Shown here one piece after another: positions 3,727 through 55,460 of a stretch of DNA of 64,000 nucleotides. Both the position numbers and the translations under genes were made by a program. Origin of the DNA: Bacteroidales bacterium (GTDB taxonomy: Bacteria; Bacteroidota; Bacteroidia; Bacteroidales; UBA7960); assembly GCA_012521995.1 (NCBI GenBank), contig JAAYLH010000060.1, positions 1 through 64,000 of the forward strand, written 5' to 3'. The stretch's first letter is position 1. Each line of letters begins with the position of its first letter. The notes under the pieces were generated by a model, which had not been told where the DNA came from, did not search any database, and saw only the letters and a list, made by a program, of their open reading frames with translations.

Positions 3727-5343
3727 ATGAAGAAACTACATAAAATTCAGCAAGTGACCGGCAAGCTGTTTATGCTTGGGGTTTTTGCGGTGGGTTTATG
3801 TTTTACTTCCTGCTCAGAGGAAGACATCATAGATCTGCAACCCTTCAACCAGATTTCTGAGACGGTGGCCTTCTCCACCCCTGAGAAAGTGGAACTCTCC
3901 GTGATCGGTATGTATCGTGCTGCCCAGCTGGGTTACTACGAGAACCCTCCCGGATCAGGATTGTTTGGCTATCGCGGTTATCCCTTTGGCGCTGCTTTTG
4001 TGCAACAGGGTGACAACCGTGGTGAGGACGTCATCAACATTTTTGCGTTCTATGCCATTACCTATCAAACCACCTACAACCCCACCACATTGAACAATGT
4101 GTATTACTGGCTTGACACGTATCGCCTGATCAATACCATCAACATTGTTTTGGAAGGGGTTCAAATTGCTGCTGACAATAGCGTCATCAGCCAGGAAAAA
4201 GCCAATGAGTATAAGGGCGAGGCCCTTCTGTTGCGTGCCGCAGCATATAATGAGTTGCTGTTCCACTTTGCCCGCCCTTACAAGCATACTGCCGATGGTT
4301 CACACCTTGGGGTGCCTTATCACAAGCGTTCGTTTACTACCCAGGAAGCTATTGATGAAGGCTTTGCTACGGGCCGTCATACCGTTGCCGAATGCTATGC
4401 CTGGATACTGGAAGACCTGGAGCTTGCTGAGCAATACCTGCCCCTGAAGTCACAGCGTACGGGTAACTTCAAGGTTTCTAGAGGTACCAAAGGCGCTGCC
4501 GCCGCTTATAAGGCCAGGGTACACCAGCACATGTGGAATATGCCCGGGGTCATTACCGAAGCTTCCAAGTTCTTTGGCAGCGGAATCTATGCCGGTCATT
4601 ATGCTCTGGGTGCTGAGCCCTGGACCGTGTTTGCCAACAACTATGGCAGCGACGAATACCTCTTCGGGATGGAAAGCTCGGCAACCAACTATCCGAGTGT
4701 GAACGGTGCCCTTGCCTCCCAGTACAAGCGCCGCTTCCTGGTTGCCCACAGCCCCATCAACTGGAGGAATCCCTTCTGGCTGGCAGATGATAAGCGCCGC
4801 GACCCTGTGCAAATGGTTTTCACCAACAGTGGGAACATTTTTACCAATAAGTACAGGGATGATGTAGGCTATACCGACCTTTCACCCATGATGCGGTTTG
4901 CCGAAGTGGTGCTTAACCTTGCGGAGGCCTATGCCCGCCAGGGAGACGTAACCAATGGCCTGACCTACCTGAATATGGTCAGGAACCGTGCCCTTGCCGA
5001 TCCTGAAACCCAGGCCTACACGGCAAGCAGCTTTGCCGACAACATCGAATTGCTCGAGGCCATCTTAAATGAAAGGAGAATTGAGCTGGCAATGGAAGGC
5101 CGCCGCTGGCCCGATATCCACAGGCTGCAGGCTTGCCCGCATTTCCCCATTAACGGGATTCCCGGCAAGCTGGCCAATGGTTATACCGATCCGGCCAACT
5201 ATGACCTTTCTTTAGGACCTTACACAGGCCCCTATCCGTTGGCCCCGATTCCTTACACCGACCACAGGTTTGTATGGCCGATTCCACAACTTGAGATCAA
5301 CTCGAATCCCACCCTGGCTGCCCAGCAGAACCCCGGTTGGTAA
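3727..5343 (+). CDS. SusD/RagB family nutrient-binding outer membrane lipoprotein
   Basis: Lipobox CFTSCSEED; immediately downstream of SusC; C-terminal NERRIELAMEGRRWPDIHR and WPIPQLEINSNPTLAAQQNPGW. Confidence 0.95.
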   Translation: MKKLHKIQQVTGKLFMLGVFAVGLCFTSCSEEDIIDLQPFNQISETVAFSTPEKVELSVIGMYRAAQLGYYENPPGSGLFGYRGYPFGAAFVQQGDNRGEDVINIFAFYAITYQTTYNPTTLNNVYYWLDTYRLINTINIVLEGVQIAADNSVISQEKANEYKGEALLLRAAAYNELLFHFARPYKHTADGSHLGVPYHKRSFTTQEAIDEGFATGRHTVAECYAWILEDLELAEQYLPLKSQRTGNFKVSRGTKGAAAAYKARVHQHMWNMPGVITEASKFFGSGIYAGHYALGAEPWTVFANNYGSDEYLFGMESSATNYPSVNGALASQYKRRFLVAHSPINWRNPFWLADDKRRDPVQMVFTNSGNIFTNKYRDDVGYTDLSPMMRFAEVVLNLAEAYARQGDVTNGLTYLNMVRNRALADPETQAYTASSFADNIELLEAILNERRIELAMEGRRWPDIHRLQACPHFPINGIPGKLANGYTDPANYDLSLGPYTGPYPLAPIPYTDHRFVWPIPQLEINSNPTLAAQQNPGW

Positions 5344-5460: not shown

Positions 5461-5546
5461 ACCGTTTTTCAACCGTATCATGACCGTAAAAATACGGTCA
5501 TGATACGGTCATGATACGGTCGAGATACGGTCGAAATACGGTCGAA
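5461..5546. repeat. 11-bp-periodic TACGGT-N5 array: about 3 inverted and 5 direct copies, with a 16-bp perfect hairpin
   Basis: Direct copies ATACGGTCATG x2, ATACGGTCGAG, ATACGGTCGAA x2 at 5492-5546; inverted ACCGT at 5461, 5472, 5483; stem CCGTATCATGACCGTA (5473-5488) with TACGGTCATGATACGG (5493-5508), AAAA loop. Confidence 0.95.
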
Positions 5547-20686: not shown

Positions 20687-22324
20687 ATGAAGCATTTATC
20701 CGTACTGTTGCTTTCGGTGATCCTGGCCTTTGGGGCCCTGACCGGATGCGCACCCAAAACCGATGAATACACTGAAACGATGAAAGCCAAACTTGAGCAG
20801 TTTAAGGAAGTGACCCTCACCACCGACCTGTCGTGGTTAAGTGAAAAAGAACGTGAAATGATCAGCATCCTGATCGATGCGGCCGACCTGATGGACGAGG
20901 TGTTCTGGATGCAGGCCTATGGCGATAAGGATCAGTTGATGCGCGAGCTCGACAATGAATTTGCCCGGCAGTACGCCCTCATTCATTATGGGCCCTGGGA
21001 TCGCCTTGGCGGGATGGCCCCCTTTGTTCCTGAGCTTGGAGCGAAACCCGAAGGAGCCAATTTCTATCCCACCGATATGACTAAGGAAGAATTTGAAGCA
21101 TGGGATGACCCCAATAAAACAAGCCTTTATACGGTGATTCGTCGTGATGAGGCCGGAAATCTCGTCAGTGTGCCTTATTCGCAAGCCTATGCCGAACAGC
21201 ATCAGAAAGCTGCTGAGCTGCTGCGCCAGGCCGCTGAGCTGGCCGAAGACGAAGGTCTGAAGACATACCTGCTGGCCCGCGCCGAAGCCCTTCTGAACGA
21301 CGACTACCAGCCCAGCGACTTTGCCTGGATGGCCATGAAGGAAAGCAATATTGATTTTGTCGTCGGCCCAATTGAGAATTATGAAGATCGCCTCTTCGGA
21401 TATAAGGCTGCCAATGAAGCTTTTGTGCTGGTCAAGGATCCTGAGTGGAGCGCTCGCCTGGTGAAGTTCAATGCCATGCTTCCCGAGCTGCAGGCCGGTT
21501 TGCCTGTCCCGGCCCAATATAAGGCCGAAACCCCGGGTATCGATGCCGATATGAATGTGTATTATGCCCTGTATTATGCCGGCGACTGCAATGCGGGCAG
21601 CAAAACCATTGCCATCAACCTGCCCAACGACCCTGAAATCCATACCTCGGTAGGAACCCGCAAGCTGCAACTCAAAAACTCCATGCAGGCAAAATTCGAT
21701 AACATCCTGGTGCCGATTGCCAATATGCTGATCGACGAGAGCCAGCGCAAACACATTAAGTTTGATGCATTCTTTGAAAACACCACTTTCCACGAGGTAT
21801 CACACGGGATGGGCGTGAAGAACACGATCACGGGTCAGGGCCCCATGCGCGAAGCCCTGCGCGAATACTACAGCCCCATCGAAGAAGCCAAGGCCGATAT
21901 CATGGGCCTTTACCTGGTGACCCAGCTCTATGAAATGGGTGAGATCACCAGCGGAGAGGTGATGGACAACTATGTGACCTTCTTTGCCGGAATCTTCCGT
22001 AGCAGCCGTTTTGGGGCGAGTAGCGCTCACGGACGAGCCAATATGCTGACAATGAAATATTTTGCTGACCGCGGCGCTTTCGTATATCAGGAAAACGGAA
22101 CCTATCTGGTGAATTTTGAAGCGATGCGTGAAGCCGTCTTTGCACTTTTGGCCGATATCCTGATGGTGCAGGGCGATGGGAACTACGCTGAAGCAAAAAA
22201 TTGGGTGGACCAGGATGGCGTGATGACTGACCAGCTCCGCACTGACCTTGAAAAAGTGAATGCTGCCGGCATCCCCGTTGACATTGTCTTCAAGCAGGGC
22301 AAGGAAGTCCTTGGACTCAGATAA
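20687..22324 (+). CDS. Dipeptidyl-peptidase III-like (M49) zinc metallopeptidase lipoprotein
   Basis: Lipobox LTGCAPKT; ENTTFHEVSHGMG zinc motif; second motif EEAKADIMGLYL. Confidence 0.85.
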   Translation: MKHLSVLLLSVILAFGALTGCAPKTDEYTETMKAKLEQFKEVTLTTDLSWLSEKEREMISILIDAADLMDEVFWMQAYGDKDQLMRELDNEFARQYALIHYGPWDRLGGMAPFVPELGAKPEGANFYPTDMTKEEFEAWDDPNKTSLYTVIRRDEAGNLVSVPYSQAYAEQHQKAAELLRQAAELAEDEGLKTYLLARAEALLNDDYQPSDFAWMAMKESNIDFVVGPIENYEDRLFGYKAANEAFVLVKDPEWSARLVKFNAMLPELQAGLPVPAQYKAETPGIDADMNVYYALYYAGDCNAGSKTIAINLPNDPEIHTSVGTRKLQLKNSMQAKFDNILVPIANMLIDESQRKHIKFDAFFENTTFHEVSHGMGVKNTITGQGPMREALREYYSPIEEAKADIMGLYLVTQLYEMGEITSGEVMDNYVTFFAGIFRSSRFGASSAHGRANMLTMKYFADRGAFVYQENGTYLVNFEAMREAVFALLADILMVQGDGNYAEAKNWVDQDGVMTDQLRTDLEKVNAAGIPVDIVFKQGKEVLGLR

Positions 22325-22349: not shown

Positions 22350-22397
22350 GGCTTCCCAGAATTTGCCAGAGGGCATTTTTGGGAAGCCATTTTTTTT
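22350..22397 (+). terminator. Rho-independent terminator after the M49 peptidase
   Basis: GGCTTCCCA (22350-22358) with TGGGAAGCC (22380-22388), then T8. Confidence 0.8.
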
Positions 22398-22436: not shown

Positions 22437-22510
22437 TAGTTTAACCGTACTTTAACCAATTACAATTGGTTAAAGTACGGTTAAACTACGGTTAAAGTAC
22501 GGTTAAACTT
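22437..22510. repeat. Second 11-bp-periodic TACGGTTAAA(S) array with a long perfect hairpin
   Basis: GGTTAAAGTAC (22468), GGTTAAACTAC (22479), GGTTAAAGTAC (22490), GGTTAAACTT (22501); inverted arms TAGTTTAACCGTACTTTAACCAATT (22437-22461) and AATTGGTTAAAGTACGGTTAAACTA (22464-22488). Confidence 0.95.
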
Positions 22511-22710: not shown

Positions 22711-24390
22711 ATGAGAATATTAAAATCGATTTTCACCCTGTTGATGGTTTTTTTGCTTCAGGGCTCCTTTGGACAGTCAAACTTTGATTTTTCGGACGAG
22801 CGAGTGCTCGAGCGTCTGAAAAAAGATATTTACACCCTGGCCGACGAGCGCATGGAAGGCCGGGAAGCAGGCACGCCCGGAGAGCGGCTGGCTGCTGAAT
22901 ACATTGCAAATCAAATGCTTGAGGCAGGTCTTAAGCCCATTTTCAATGAGTCGTATTTCCAGGAGGTTCCTTTCCCCGGTGCTTTCGTTGAAGGCCCCGA
23001 TAATTTCCTGGTGATTGATGGAGTGACTTATACATTCAATGAAGACTTTTTTGCCCTGCCCAATACGGGCAATGCAGTGGTGAATGCACCCGCTGTATTT
23101 GCAGGTTTTGGGCTGGAAGGGGTGGAAGGCATTGACAACTATGGCGGCCTGGGATCTGTTGCAGGACGGGTGGTTGTGCTCGATTATTATTCGCCCGAAG
23201 GTCTGAACGAGAGACTTGATATTACGACCCGAGAGGCTTTGGCGCAGAAGATAGAACTGGCGGTAAAGAAGGGTGCTGCCGGGATAATTCTTGTCAATAC
23301 CCTTTCGTGGCAGTCGGATCCGCGCATCAGCCTGGGTATGGAGGTGCCGCGAGAGGGCATTCCTGTGGTATTTGGCACTGAACGGGTCAGGGATGTGCTT
23401 CTGGCTAAGGCAGACGTCGAAGTGCTCTTATCTACTGAGCTGGAGCGGCCGATGTACACGGGGTACAATGTGGCAGGCTATTGGGACAATGGGGCGCCTA
23501 CCACTGTAATTATTGGGGGTCATTACGACCACCTGGGCTATGGCGGATCGGGCTCACGCAGCCCCGGGGAGCACGCCCTTCATCCCGGTGCTGATGACAA
23601 TGCCAGTGGAACGGCAGGAGTGCTGGAAGCCGCCCGCTACCTGGTTCAATCTGACCTGAAAAAACACAATTATATTTTCATCGCCTTTACGGCGGAAGAA
23701 AAGGGGCTGATTGGCAGCCGGTATTTTGCCGACAGCGAAGCCTATGATATGGGCAAGGTGAATTATATGTTCAATTTTGATATGCTTGGTCGTTTGACTG
23801 ACAATAAACTGTCGCTGATCGGCACGGGCACTACCCCCATCTGGGAAGCTGCAATCGACCATGTTGCCCCCGGTCATTTCAACATTCGTAAAAGCCCCGG
23901 TGGCCTGGGAGGTTCTGATCATACTGCTTTTTACCTGAAAAATATTCCTGTGCTGTTTTTCTTTACAGGTATTCACGATGACTACCACCGCCCCGGGGAT
24001 ACGCCCGATAAGGTGAACTACCAGGGCACCCTTGAGATCATGAAGTTTACCTACGATTTGATGCGGGAACTCGAAACCGAAGACAGGCTGGCTTTTACGC
24101 CTACCCAGTCGAGCGACACGCGTCGCCGTCGCACGGAAGGGGTGACCCTGGGCCTGATGCCTGACCATGTATATACGGGGGAGGGCCTGAAAATTCAGGC
24201 GGTGATGGATGATCGTCCCGCTCAGAAGGCCGGCATTGCCAACGGGGATGTAATTATTCGCATTAATGATGATGAGGTTAGTGAGATTCAGACCTATATG
24301 CGGGCCCTTGGAAACCTTAAGGGGGGAAGCAAGGCCATGATCACCGTCAAAAGGGGAGAAGAGGTTATGACCTTCCAGGTACAGCTTTAA
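22711..24390 (+). CDS. Secreted M28 family aminopeptidase with C-terminal PDZ domain
   Basis: Signal peptide; VIIGGHYDHLGYGGSGSRSPGEHALHPGADDNASGTAGVLEAAR, FTAEEKGLIGSRYF, GGLGGSDHTAFYLKNIPVLFFFTGIHDDYHRPGDT; PDZ-like tail LGLMPDHVYTGEGLKIQAVMDDRPAQKAGIANGDVIIRIND. Confidence 0.94.
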   Translation: MRILKSIFTLLMVFLLQGSFGQSNFDFSDERVLERLKKDIYTLADERMEGREAGTPGERLAAEYIANQMLEAGLKPIFNESYFQEVPFPGAFVEGPDNFLVIDGVTYTFNEDFFALPNTGNAVVNAPAVFAGFGLEGVEGIDNYGGLGSVAGRVVVLDYYSPEGLNERLDITTREALAQKIELAVKKGAAGIILVNTLSWQSDPRISLGMEVPREGIPVVFGTERVRDVLLAKADVEVLLSTELERPMYTGYNVAGYWDNGAPTTVIIGGHYDHLGYGGSGSRSPGEHALHPGADDNASGTAGVLEAARYLVQSDLKKHNYIFIAFTAEEKGLIGSRYFADSEAYDMGKVNYMFNFDMLGRLTDNKLSLIGTGTTPIWEAAIDHVAPGHFNIRKSPGGLGGSDHTAFYLKNIPVLFFFTGIHDDYHRPGDTPDKVNYQGTLEIMKFTYDLMRELETEDRLAFTPTQSSDTRRRRTEGVTLGLMPDHVYTGEGLKIQAVMDDRPAQKAGIANGDVIIRINDDEVSEIQTYMRALGNLKGGSKAMITVKRGEEVMTFQVQL

Positions 24391-27860: not shown

Positions 27861-28616
27861 ATGAAAAGAATATTTTTAATGGCGGGTGTAATCCTGGTTT
27901 CTGTAACAATGTTTGCCCAGAGTCCCCGCTCGCAGCAAGAGAGTCAGGCTCGACAGCAGGGGCAGGCAGCTCGTGAACAGGCACATCAATCTCGTGAGGA
28001 AGCTCAGAAGGCGCGTGAACGTGCACGTGAAGAGGCTCAAAAAGCGCGTGAGATGGAAAAGGAAGAAGCCAGCAGGGCGCGTGAACAGGCTCATGAGAGG
28101 GCGAAGGAAGAAGCAGAATATTTGCGTGAGCAAAGTAAGCATGAAGCTGAGATGGCCCGTGAGCAAGTCCAGCACGAAGCTGAGATGGCTCGTGAACGAG
28201 GAGAAGGGGCCAGTGGAAATGCTTACGGTCGCAATAAAGGCGGCCTGAGTGGCCGTGATTTTGGTCAGGCTCGCGCAGCGGCAGCCCGTTCAAAAGAGGA
28301 GAAGGAAGAAGTAACGCGCGAAGTGGCGGTTGAAGTGGAAGAGGGGGTTCAGAGGACCACCTCACGCATTGAAGAGGCCCGCCAGCGCCTTGAAGAAAGG
28401 GTAAAAAACCGTGAGATCACGCGCGAAGAGTATGAGGAGCGCAGCAAGCGGGTGGCCGAGATTGAAGAGGAGATCCGTCGTATTGAGGCCGTTCGTCAGG
28501 AGACCGAACGGGTGATTCTTGAACGTTTGCCTGAAAGGGCTCCTGCAAACACTCCTGAAGCTAAGCCTGAAAGGGAAAATGAGCCTGCACCCGCAAGAAC
28601 CACGGAAAGGCGTTAA
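27861..28616 (+). CDS. Secreted Arg/Glu-rich coiled-coil protein with internal repeats
   Basis: Signal peptide MKRIFLMAGVILVSVTMFAQ; repeated REEAQKARERA / REQxxHEAEMA motifs; starts 14 bp after the upstream lipoprotein. Confidence 0.75.
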   Translation: MKRIFLMAGVILVSVTMFAQSPRSQQESQARQQGQAAREQAHQSREEAQKARERAREEAQKAREMEKEEASRAREQAHERAKEEAEYLREQSKHEAEMAREQVQHEAEMARERGEGASGNAYGRNKGGLSGRDFGQARAAAARSKEEKEEVTREVAVEVEEGVQRTTSRIEEARQRLEERVKNREITREEYEERSKRVAEIEEEIRRIEAVRQETERVILERLPERAPANTPEAKPERENEPAPARTTERR

Positions 28617-55431: not shown

Positions 55432-55460
55432 TTTTACCACTTTTTACCACTTTTTACCAC
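55432..55460 (-). promoter_or_regulatory. Probable MraZ operator: three 10-bp-spaced GTGGTAAAA repeats upstream of mraZ
   Basis: Minus strand reads GTGGTAAAAA GTGGTAAAAA GTGGTAAAAT, 41-69 bp upstream of the mraZ start; resembles known 10-bp-spaced TGGG-type MraZ boxes. Confidence 0.7.

Follow-up and report, generated by a model that had tools for sequence, protein, structure and literature searches.

The BIME and ERIC elements of enterobacteria are intergenic palindromes at transcript ends, and ParR/parC and other iteron systems have 11-bp phased direct repeats that are bound by an oligomer. The BrickBuilt MITEs of Porphyromonas gingivalis consist of 23-nt direct repeats with leader and tail segments and IS-like terminal inverted repeats (PMC4596501). 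REPIN-RAYT systems combine REP doublets with a linked Y1 tyrosine transposase (PMC8049555, PMC3116915, PMC3733652). REPIN-RAYT is the nearest known system, in organisation, to the arrays described here, in which 11-bp units form inverted arms between genes and fall into classes matched to genes of the DUF6266 family (PF19781). These matched classes suggest an undescribed set of paired proteins and DNA sites between genes. A literature search for intergenic 11-bp palindromic repeats gave no match, and no paper naming DUF6266 was found.

The window, the whole 64,000-nucleotide stretch that was analysed, comes from the genome referred to as G000 and contains two such arrays (Table 1). The initial annotation described the one at 22437 as a perfect inverted repeat with 11-bp units. 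This is confirmed: the arms at 22437-22461 and 22464-22488 are exact reverse complements (25+2+25 nt, centre AC at 22462-22463), and the core pair TACGGT-N5-TACGGT occurs seven times in the window and never in 100 shuffles. Across G000 the pair occurs 69 times, against 0 for a reversed control pattern. The number of units, given as four, has to be amended. Three full TACGGTTAAAS units lie to the right of the centre, preceded by a fourth that is degenerate (ATTGGTTAAAG at 22465), and the left arm has one full TACGGT unit and a degenerate unit. The described order of gene, intrinsic terminator, array and gene is visible in the sequence, the terminator lying between the upstream gene and the array. 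Elsewhere in the window there are a 33-bp tandem repeat of 2.2 copies within overlapping reading frames (28125-28195) and an intergenic perfect 10-bp tandem repeat of 2.9 copies (TTTTACCACT, 55432-55460), the latter with no relation to the arrays.

Table 1. Features of the two arrays in the window, and units of the other G000 classes
Feature	Position	Strand	Details
Class A array, unit TACGGTTAAAS	22437..22510	+	inverted arms around AC, two more units on right
Three full 11-bp units TACGGTTAAAC / TACGGTTAAAG / TACGGTTAAAC	22476..22508	+	cores at 22476, 22487, 22498
Intrinsic terminator of upstream gene, 9-bp stem, T8	22350..22397	+	GGCTTCCCA...TGGGAAGCC + T8, read directly in sequence
Upstream gene, peptidase family M49-like	20687..22324	+	PF03571 E=2.6e-11; context only
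Downstream gene, M28 peptidase with PDZ domain	22711..24390	+	PF04389 E=5e-39; context only
Class B array, units TACGGTCATGA, TACGGTCGAGA, TACGGTCGAAA	5461..5546	+	2 inverted units, short AT centre, 5 forward units
SusD/RagB gene 5' of class B array	3727..5343	+	PF07980 E=1.5e-28; context only
Class C1 units			TACGTCTGAAC/TACGTGTTAAC
Class C2 units			TACGTCTAAGG/TACGTCTTAAG
Class D unit			TCCGTATTAAC

The array at 22437 belongs to class A, which has 19 aligned loci, one of them (L049) a gene-linked array. The array at 5461 is one of six class B loci. The two had been matched to each other in the initial annotation; they do have the TACGGT core and the period in common, but their unit classes are different, the class B spacers being CATGA, CGAGA and CGAAA. 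The view that they represent a family of elements, not a duplication of one sequence, is borne out, and 11-bp phasing, core and inverted layout define that family. Loss of the 11-bp spacing had been named beforehand as one outcome that would speak against it. When this was examined the period was 11 in every class looked at, and thus the finding survives its own refutation test.

The class A half-site reads outward AATTGG TTAAAS TACGG TTAAAC TACGG TTWAAC T and is symmetric about a fixed centre. The first TACGGTT is invariant in 38 of 38 arms. Further, partly conserved positions lie near 44-49 and 58-61 (TTTGATAC...AAACG), so the element, which ends CGTTT...AAACG, is about 120 bp; beyond position ~62 the sequences are unrelated. 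A MITE would have terminal inverted repeats and a target-site duplication; at class A loci no duplication was seen by eye and no empty site was recovered. Units tend to be alike within one arm. The two arms at one locus can differ, and most classes are therefore not constrained to form a perfect hairpin. At inner positions 13, 21 and 24 of class A the loci differ on both arms together (permutation p below 0.001), and no arm-arm covariation was found outside the inner class A arms. A sequence-only model of class A, used to scan the genome and its congeners, found many further loci, its weaker matches reading as real arrays with other units. Weak matches in G058 and G110 looked like chance and were rejected, and repeats of TACGGTGGTCA in G093 were set aside as direct repeats only.

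A contiguous 761 kb of G000 sequence holds 26 arrays, which extrapolates to ~110 per genome. Of these, 24 are two-armed loci from a unit-profile scan that found no two-armed locus in shuffled sequence, and two are further loci. Self-similarity in the same 761 kb gave 20 clusters at lag 11 and 0-7 at other lags, except at the double, lag 22 (17). By gene calls that were our own and ORF-based, the array gaps (n=25) are 12 convergent, 12 tandem and 1 divergent, compared with 26, 65 and 29 among all 120 gaps of at least 250 bp. The convergent excess (12/25 vs 26/120) has a Fisher p=0.009 and the divergent deficit p=0.015; at G180 and G302, from two other families of the order, all 17 loci are non-divergent. 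The arrays also repel each other. The minimum gap in the censused DNA is 10.8 kb (P=0.0002 against matched intergenic positions), and in G180 the smallest gap among those listed is 15.2 kb (P=0.008 under an exponential null).

The layout noted at the two window arrays, an array before a secreted-protein gene, is not general, as half of the arrays sit between convergent genes. The neighbouring genes are functionally mixed (ribosomal protein S6, amino acid kinase, glutamine synthetase, SusD, transporters). A regulon of secreted or SusCD genes was rejected on account of these mixed neighbours together with the convergent half of the gaps. Nor do the other sites lie at regulon promoters, as expected of a regulator, since divergent gaps are avoided and the neighbours are mixed.

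Nearly all arrays are 3' of at least one gene and class A is able to fold as a long hairpin, as would suit a role at transcript ends, either as RNA hairpins or as bidirectional terminators. This reading is very improbable. In the window, as at the other loci inspected, the array comes after a separate intrinsic terminator, the arrays have no U-tract, and Rfam gave 0 matches in the window. Outside class A the two arms have unlike unit sequences and are mostly not kept complementary, and between the close species G003 and G004 changes on one arm can be uncompensated. At the DUF6266 genes, moreover, the arrays are 5' of the gene. The structured RNA suggested in the initial annotation is thereby disfavoured. 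A regulator site array, another of its three proposed roles, comes closest, inasmuch as every class is linked with a DUF6266 gene, and the third, a short non-autonomous intergenic repeat, also fits the dispersed copies.

DUF6266 was first noticed twice beside arrays during annotation of the neighbours. The array-linked genes at L049 (E=2.2e-18) and L040 (E=3.6e-9) score above the Pfam gathering score, and matches over the cut-off were collected genome-wide: 9 in G000, 6 in G001, 2 in G003, 6 in G004, 5 in G180, 7 in G053 and 10 in G170. There are 0 matches in G002, G417 and G268 of the same genus, where arrays were also not found, and 0 in the remaining tested genera of the family. A phased inverted array lies directly 5' of all 21 intact array-type DUF6266 subfamily genes with upstream DNA read (six in G000, four in G001, two in G003, three in G004, two in G053 and four in G170; the genus plus two other genomes). 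For comparison, an array lies in the upstream gap of 14 of the 561 called genes by our count. Two frames in G004 are without an array: a frameshifted DUF6266 gene (C24:25358-25988, L275) and a classical-type DUF6266 frame with an in-frame TAG (C22:131320-131919, L248).

The strong arm usually lies away from the DUF6266 gene and the weak arm runs into the gene's promoter. A TAnnTTTG-like -7 box follows directly after the array in most DUF6266 genes of the genus, usually 33-52 bp before the ATG. Thus, as expected of a regulator, the array adjoins the predicted promoter of the DUF6266 gene.

Each class in G000 has its own gene: A pairs with the DUF6266 gene on C122, B with C51, C1 with C78/C31, C2 with C25 and D with C93. 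Solo and gene-linked classes agree elsewhere also (AACGCTTAAA in G053, TACGGTTACTC in G170, ACGGTT-ATC in G180). Solo arrays were assigned by local alignment against 21 DUF6266-linked arrays from seven genomes. The best match was a gene-linked array of the same genome for 43 of 51 solo arrays in G000, 12 of 13 in G180 and 13 of 18 in G001. In G003 and G004, where the arrays are more heterogeneous, this was so for just 2 of 19. The array at 22437 is assigned to the one 5' of the C122 gene (score 51, next 35), and that at 5461 to the one 5' of the C51 gene (score 57, next 28). Protein and unit distances are correlated (Mantel r=0.70, p=0.0002, 16 genes). Part of this correlation is shared ancestry of the gene and the adjacent DNA, and the agreement of solo arrays with genes therefore carries more weight as an argument. 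Taken as a whole, the partnership of gene and array is highly probable.

A third protein might read the arrays as operators, the DUF6266 genes being one target set among others. The arrays do adjoin DUF6266 promoters, and a few array-bearing genomes are without detectable DUF6266. This is nevertheless improbable, since it leaves unexplained both the paralogue-specific units and the co-divergence of unit and protein, and solo arrays avoid gaps that hold only promoters.

The DUF6266 protein here has ~211 residues. Its predicted model (mean pLDDT 83.6) comprises a basic N-terminal part of 60 residues, a pair of long helices and a sandwich that resembles FN3. The N-terminal 60 residues, with a net charge of +7 to +10, a pI of 10-12 and three predicted strands, are modelled at low confidence (about 50); the remainder is near 0 charge. 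FN3 domains are more usual outside cells. Fold searches found no known DNA-binding fold, and those against PDB and viral structures returned mainly FN3-like matches to the C-terminal part. The protein has no conserved His or HxH and no HUH or DDE-type set. No usable relative came from PDB sequence search, PADLOC, PHROGs or NCBIfam, and no plasmid or phage record has a relative.

Between genomes the positions of the arrays are kept while their units change. In G001, a congener, at least 10 of 12 fetched class-A' loci share the gap with a G000 array; the counterpart of 22437 is L117, flanked by the same genes. The inner units are ACCGGTTAAAC in G001 vs TACGGTTAAAC in G000, ACCGG vs TACGG, and this TA/AC difference recurs in several units per locus at many loci. 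Identity of array vs flank between G000 and G001 is uninformative, as unrelated global alignments also reach 0.71. The units could have been homogenised by selection through a binding protein or by gene conversion, with positions conserved either way; concerted change could come about by gene conversion without any protein. A few gaps hold different classes in the two genomes (L048/L115, L088/L114). The close relatives G003 and G004 share loci, some pairs having changes concentrated on one arm. In G004 a 244-bp segment surrounding an array has a ~95% duplicate (L129/L131, on C19 and C21), and in G003 two arrays have one common flank and a different second flank (L144/L140). These two cases suggest recombination or copying at arrays.

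An alternative is a selfish system of the REPIN/RAYT kind, in which a DUF6266 gene and the array linked to it would be the parent, and the solo arrays its non-autonomous offspring without host function. The copies would be spread by DUF6266 or another enzyme acting on palindromes and kept recognisable by gene conversion. Several observations are consistent with it: a linked cognate gene and dispersed copies of the same repeat, the duplicated 244-bp stretch, outer ends common to solo class A copies and the gene-linked array, and the matching two-sided differences of the inner class A arms, which are expected from palindrome correction or copying. The extragenic location, convergent excess and near absence from divergent gaps are also as for REPs (PMC3733652). 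We regard this reading as a serious rival, though rather unlikely. DUF6266 is without a conserved transposase motif, no target-site duplication is seen by eye at class A loci, the outer parts are locus-specific while the inner units are nearly identical, and arrays are kept at orthologous sites. A RAYT/Y1 transposase as the partner was rejected because it does not track the arrays: PF01797 is absent from array-bearing G033 (perhaps contamination) and present in the array-less G002, G007-G009, G011 and G015. G033, from another genus, was itself dropped as an array bearer. Its arrays lie on small contigs (L147, L148, L149) that resemble G003/G004 DNA, one of them closely, and they are thus probably contamination of the assembly, judging by the sequence.

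The association extends across the order. Among 393 genomes the ACGK-core pattern was found in 23, the DUF6266 profile in 46 and both in 10, against 2.7 expected (Fisher p=7e-5). With no core assumed, period 11 was best upstream of 22 of 36 DUF6266 homologues, and of random segments from the same loci for a mean of 2.6 (maximum 8). In other families the units are built on different cores, such as AAAGGTAGAGA in G170, and the general rule is therefore the period and inverted layout, not TACGGT. DUF6266 homologues of other families (L249, L283, L302, L303, L304) have upstream 11-bp repeats of very different units (for example of GTCCGTATCAA and CGATGATGG type), in some cases apparently as direct repeats alone. 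The array-bearing G302, G104 and G246 gave no match to DUF6266. G302 C1, a 5.26 Mb contig (L241-L244, L215), and G104 (L152, L058) have the same architecture with ATACGG-N5 units and an ATATAT-like centre; their partner protein may have diverged too far to be recognised.

The best explanation appears to be that DUF6266 paralogues bind the arrays cognate to them, regulate their own genes and have solo sites chromosome-wide, a proposal that on balance is probable. It builds on the observed array classes, their linkage and co-divergence with the genes, their co-occurrence with DUF6266, their spacing and their conserved positions. Against it speak the low model confidence of the N-terminal part, the negative search for a DNA-binding fold, the FN3-like C-terminal part, the array-bearing genomes with no DUF6266 match and the poor assignment of solo arrays in G003 and G004. 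Direct binding of DUF6266 to the arrays is predicted and fairly likely. The array would be a multi-unit DNA site of the DUF6266 protein, on whose 11-bp units one or more subunits dock via the basic N-terminal 60 residues. The docked units would all be on one face of the helix, symmetric on both sides of the dyad. Where the weak arm reaches the promoter of the DUF6266 gene, the protein would control its own transcription. In the gaps between transcription units, solo arrays with the same unit as the gene-linked array would serve as bound sites; thus 22437 would be a solo site of the C122 class and 5461 one of the C51 class.

Solo copies, when bound, may anchor or insulate between transcription units, or they may have been retained and titrate DUF6266. 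That they are regularly spaced and have been retained speaks for a structural or insulating use. An architectural role is proposed tentatively, and a selfish nature of the solo copies is entertained with the same reserve. It is also conceivable, though speculative, that DUF6266 proteins in many families of one order are fast-diverging sequence-specific DNA binders, several per genome, each with ~5-20 dyad arrays at least ~10 kb apart between transcription units, which organise or insulate the chromosome and whose recognition shifts with the protein.

DUF6266 is present in many genomes of the order without an assigned function, and its link to a concrete DNA site opens that function to immediate testing. 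The paralogues form a natural series in which known changes of the protein have probably been accompanied by shifts in DNA recognition. The link would also account for an entire class of intergenic repeats.

The arrays share with BIME/ERIC an intergenic, palindromic character and a location at transcript ends, but BIME/ERIC have neither the 11-bp internal periodicity nor a cognate paralogous gene family. BrickBuilt elements are likewise intergenic, multi-copy and based on tandem repeats, in a host that is probably of the same phylum as G000, whose SusC/SusD genes suggest Bacteroidota. They are without inverted arms and a linked DUF6266 gene, and their 23-nt repeats and IS-like terminal inverted repeats were not found here, where the period is 11. 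ParR/parC is alike in having phased units 5' of the gene for the proposed binder, suited to oligomeric docking; the arrays differ from it in their two divergent arms, ~100 chromosomal sites and unrelated protein.

The likeness to REPIN-RAYT is the closest. Both have dispersed extragenic inverted repeats, ~100 per genome, with a linked protein gene beside the same repeat; in both the sequence type varies by lineage, inheritance is vertical and tandem and convergent gaps are preferred. The partner there is a Y1 transposase, whereas here DUF6266 stands in the place of RAYT. REPs are tagged hairpins of 20-40 bp; no hairpin with an unpaired GTAG or CGTC tag was found here, the units being 11-bp phased tandem repeats in two divergent arms. 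Unlike REPIN-RAYT, the arrays come in several paralogue/array classes per genome, and the linked array adjoins the promoter of its gene. DUF6266 and its arrays would thus be a non-transposase counterpart to the puzzle that REPIN-RAYT poses, of why a genome keeps a protein plus many copies of its site.
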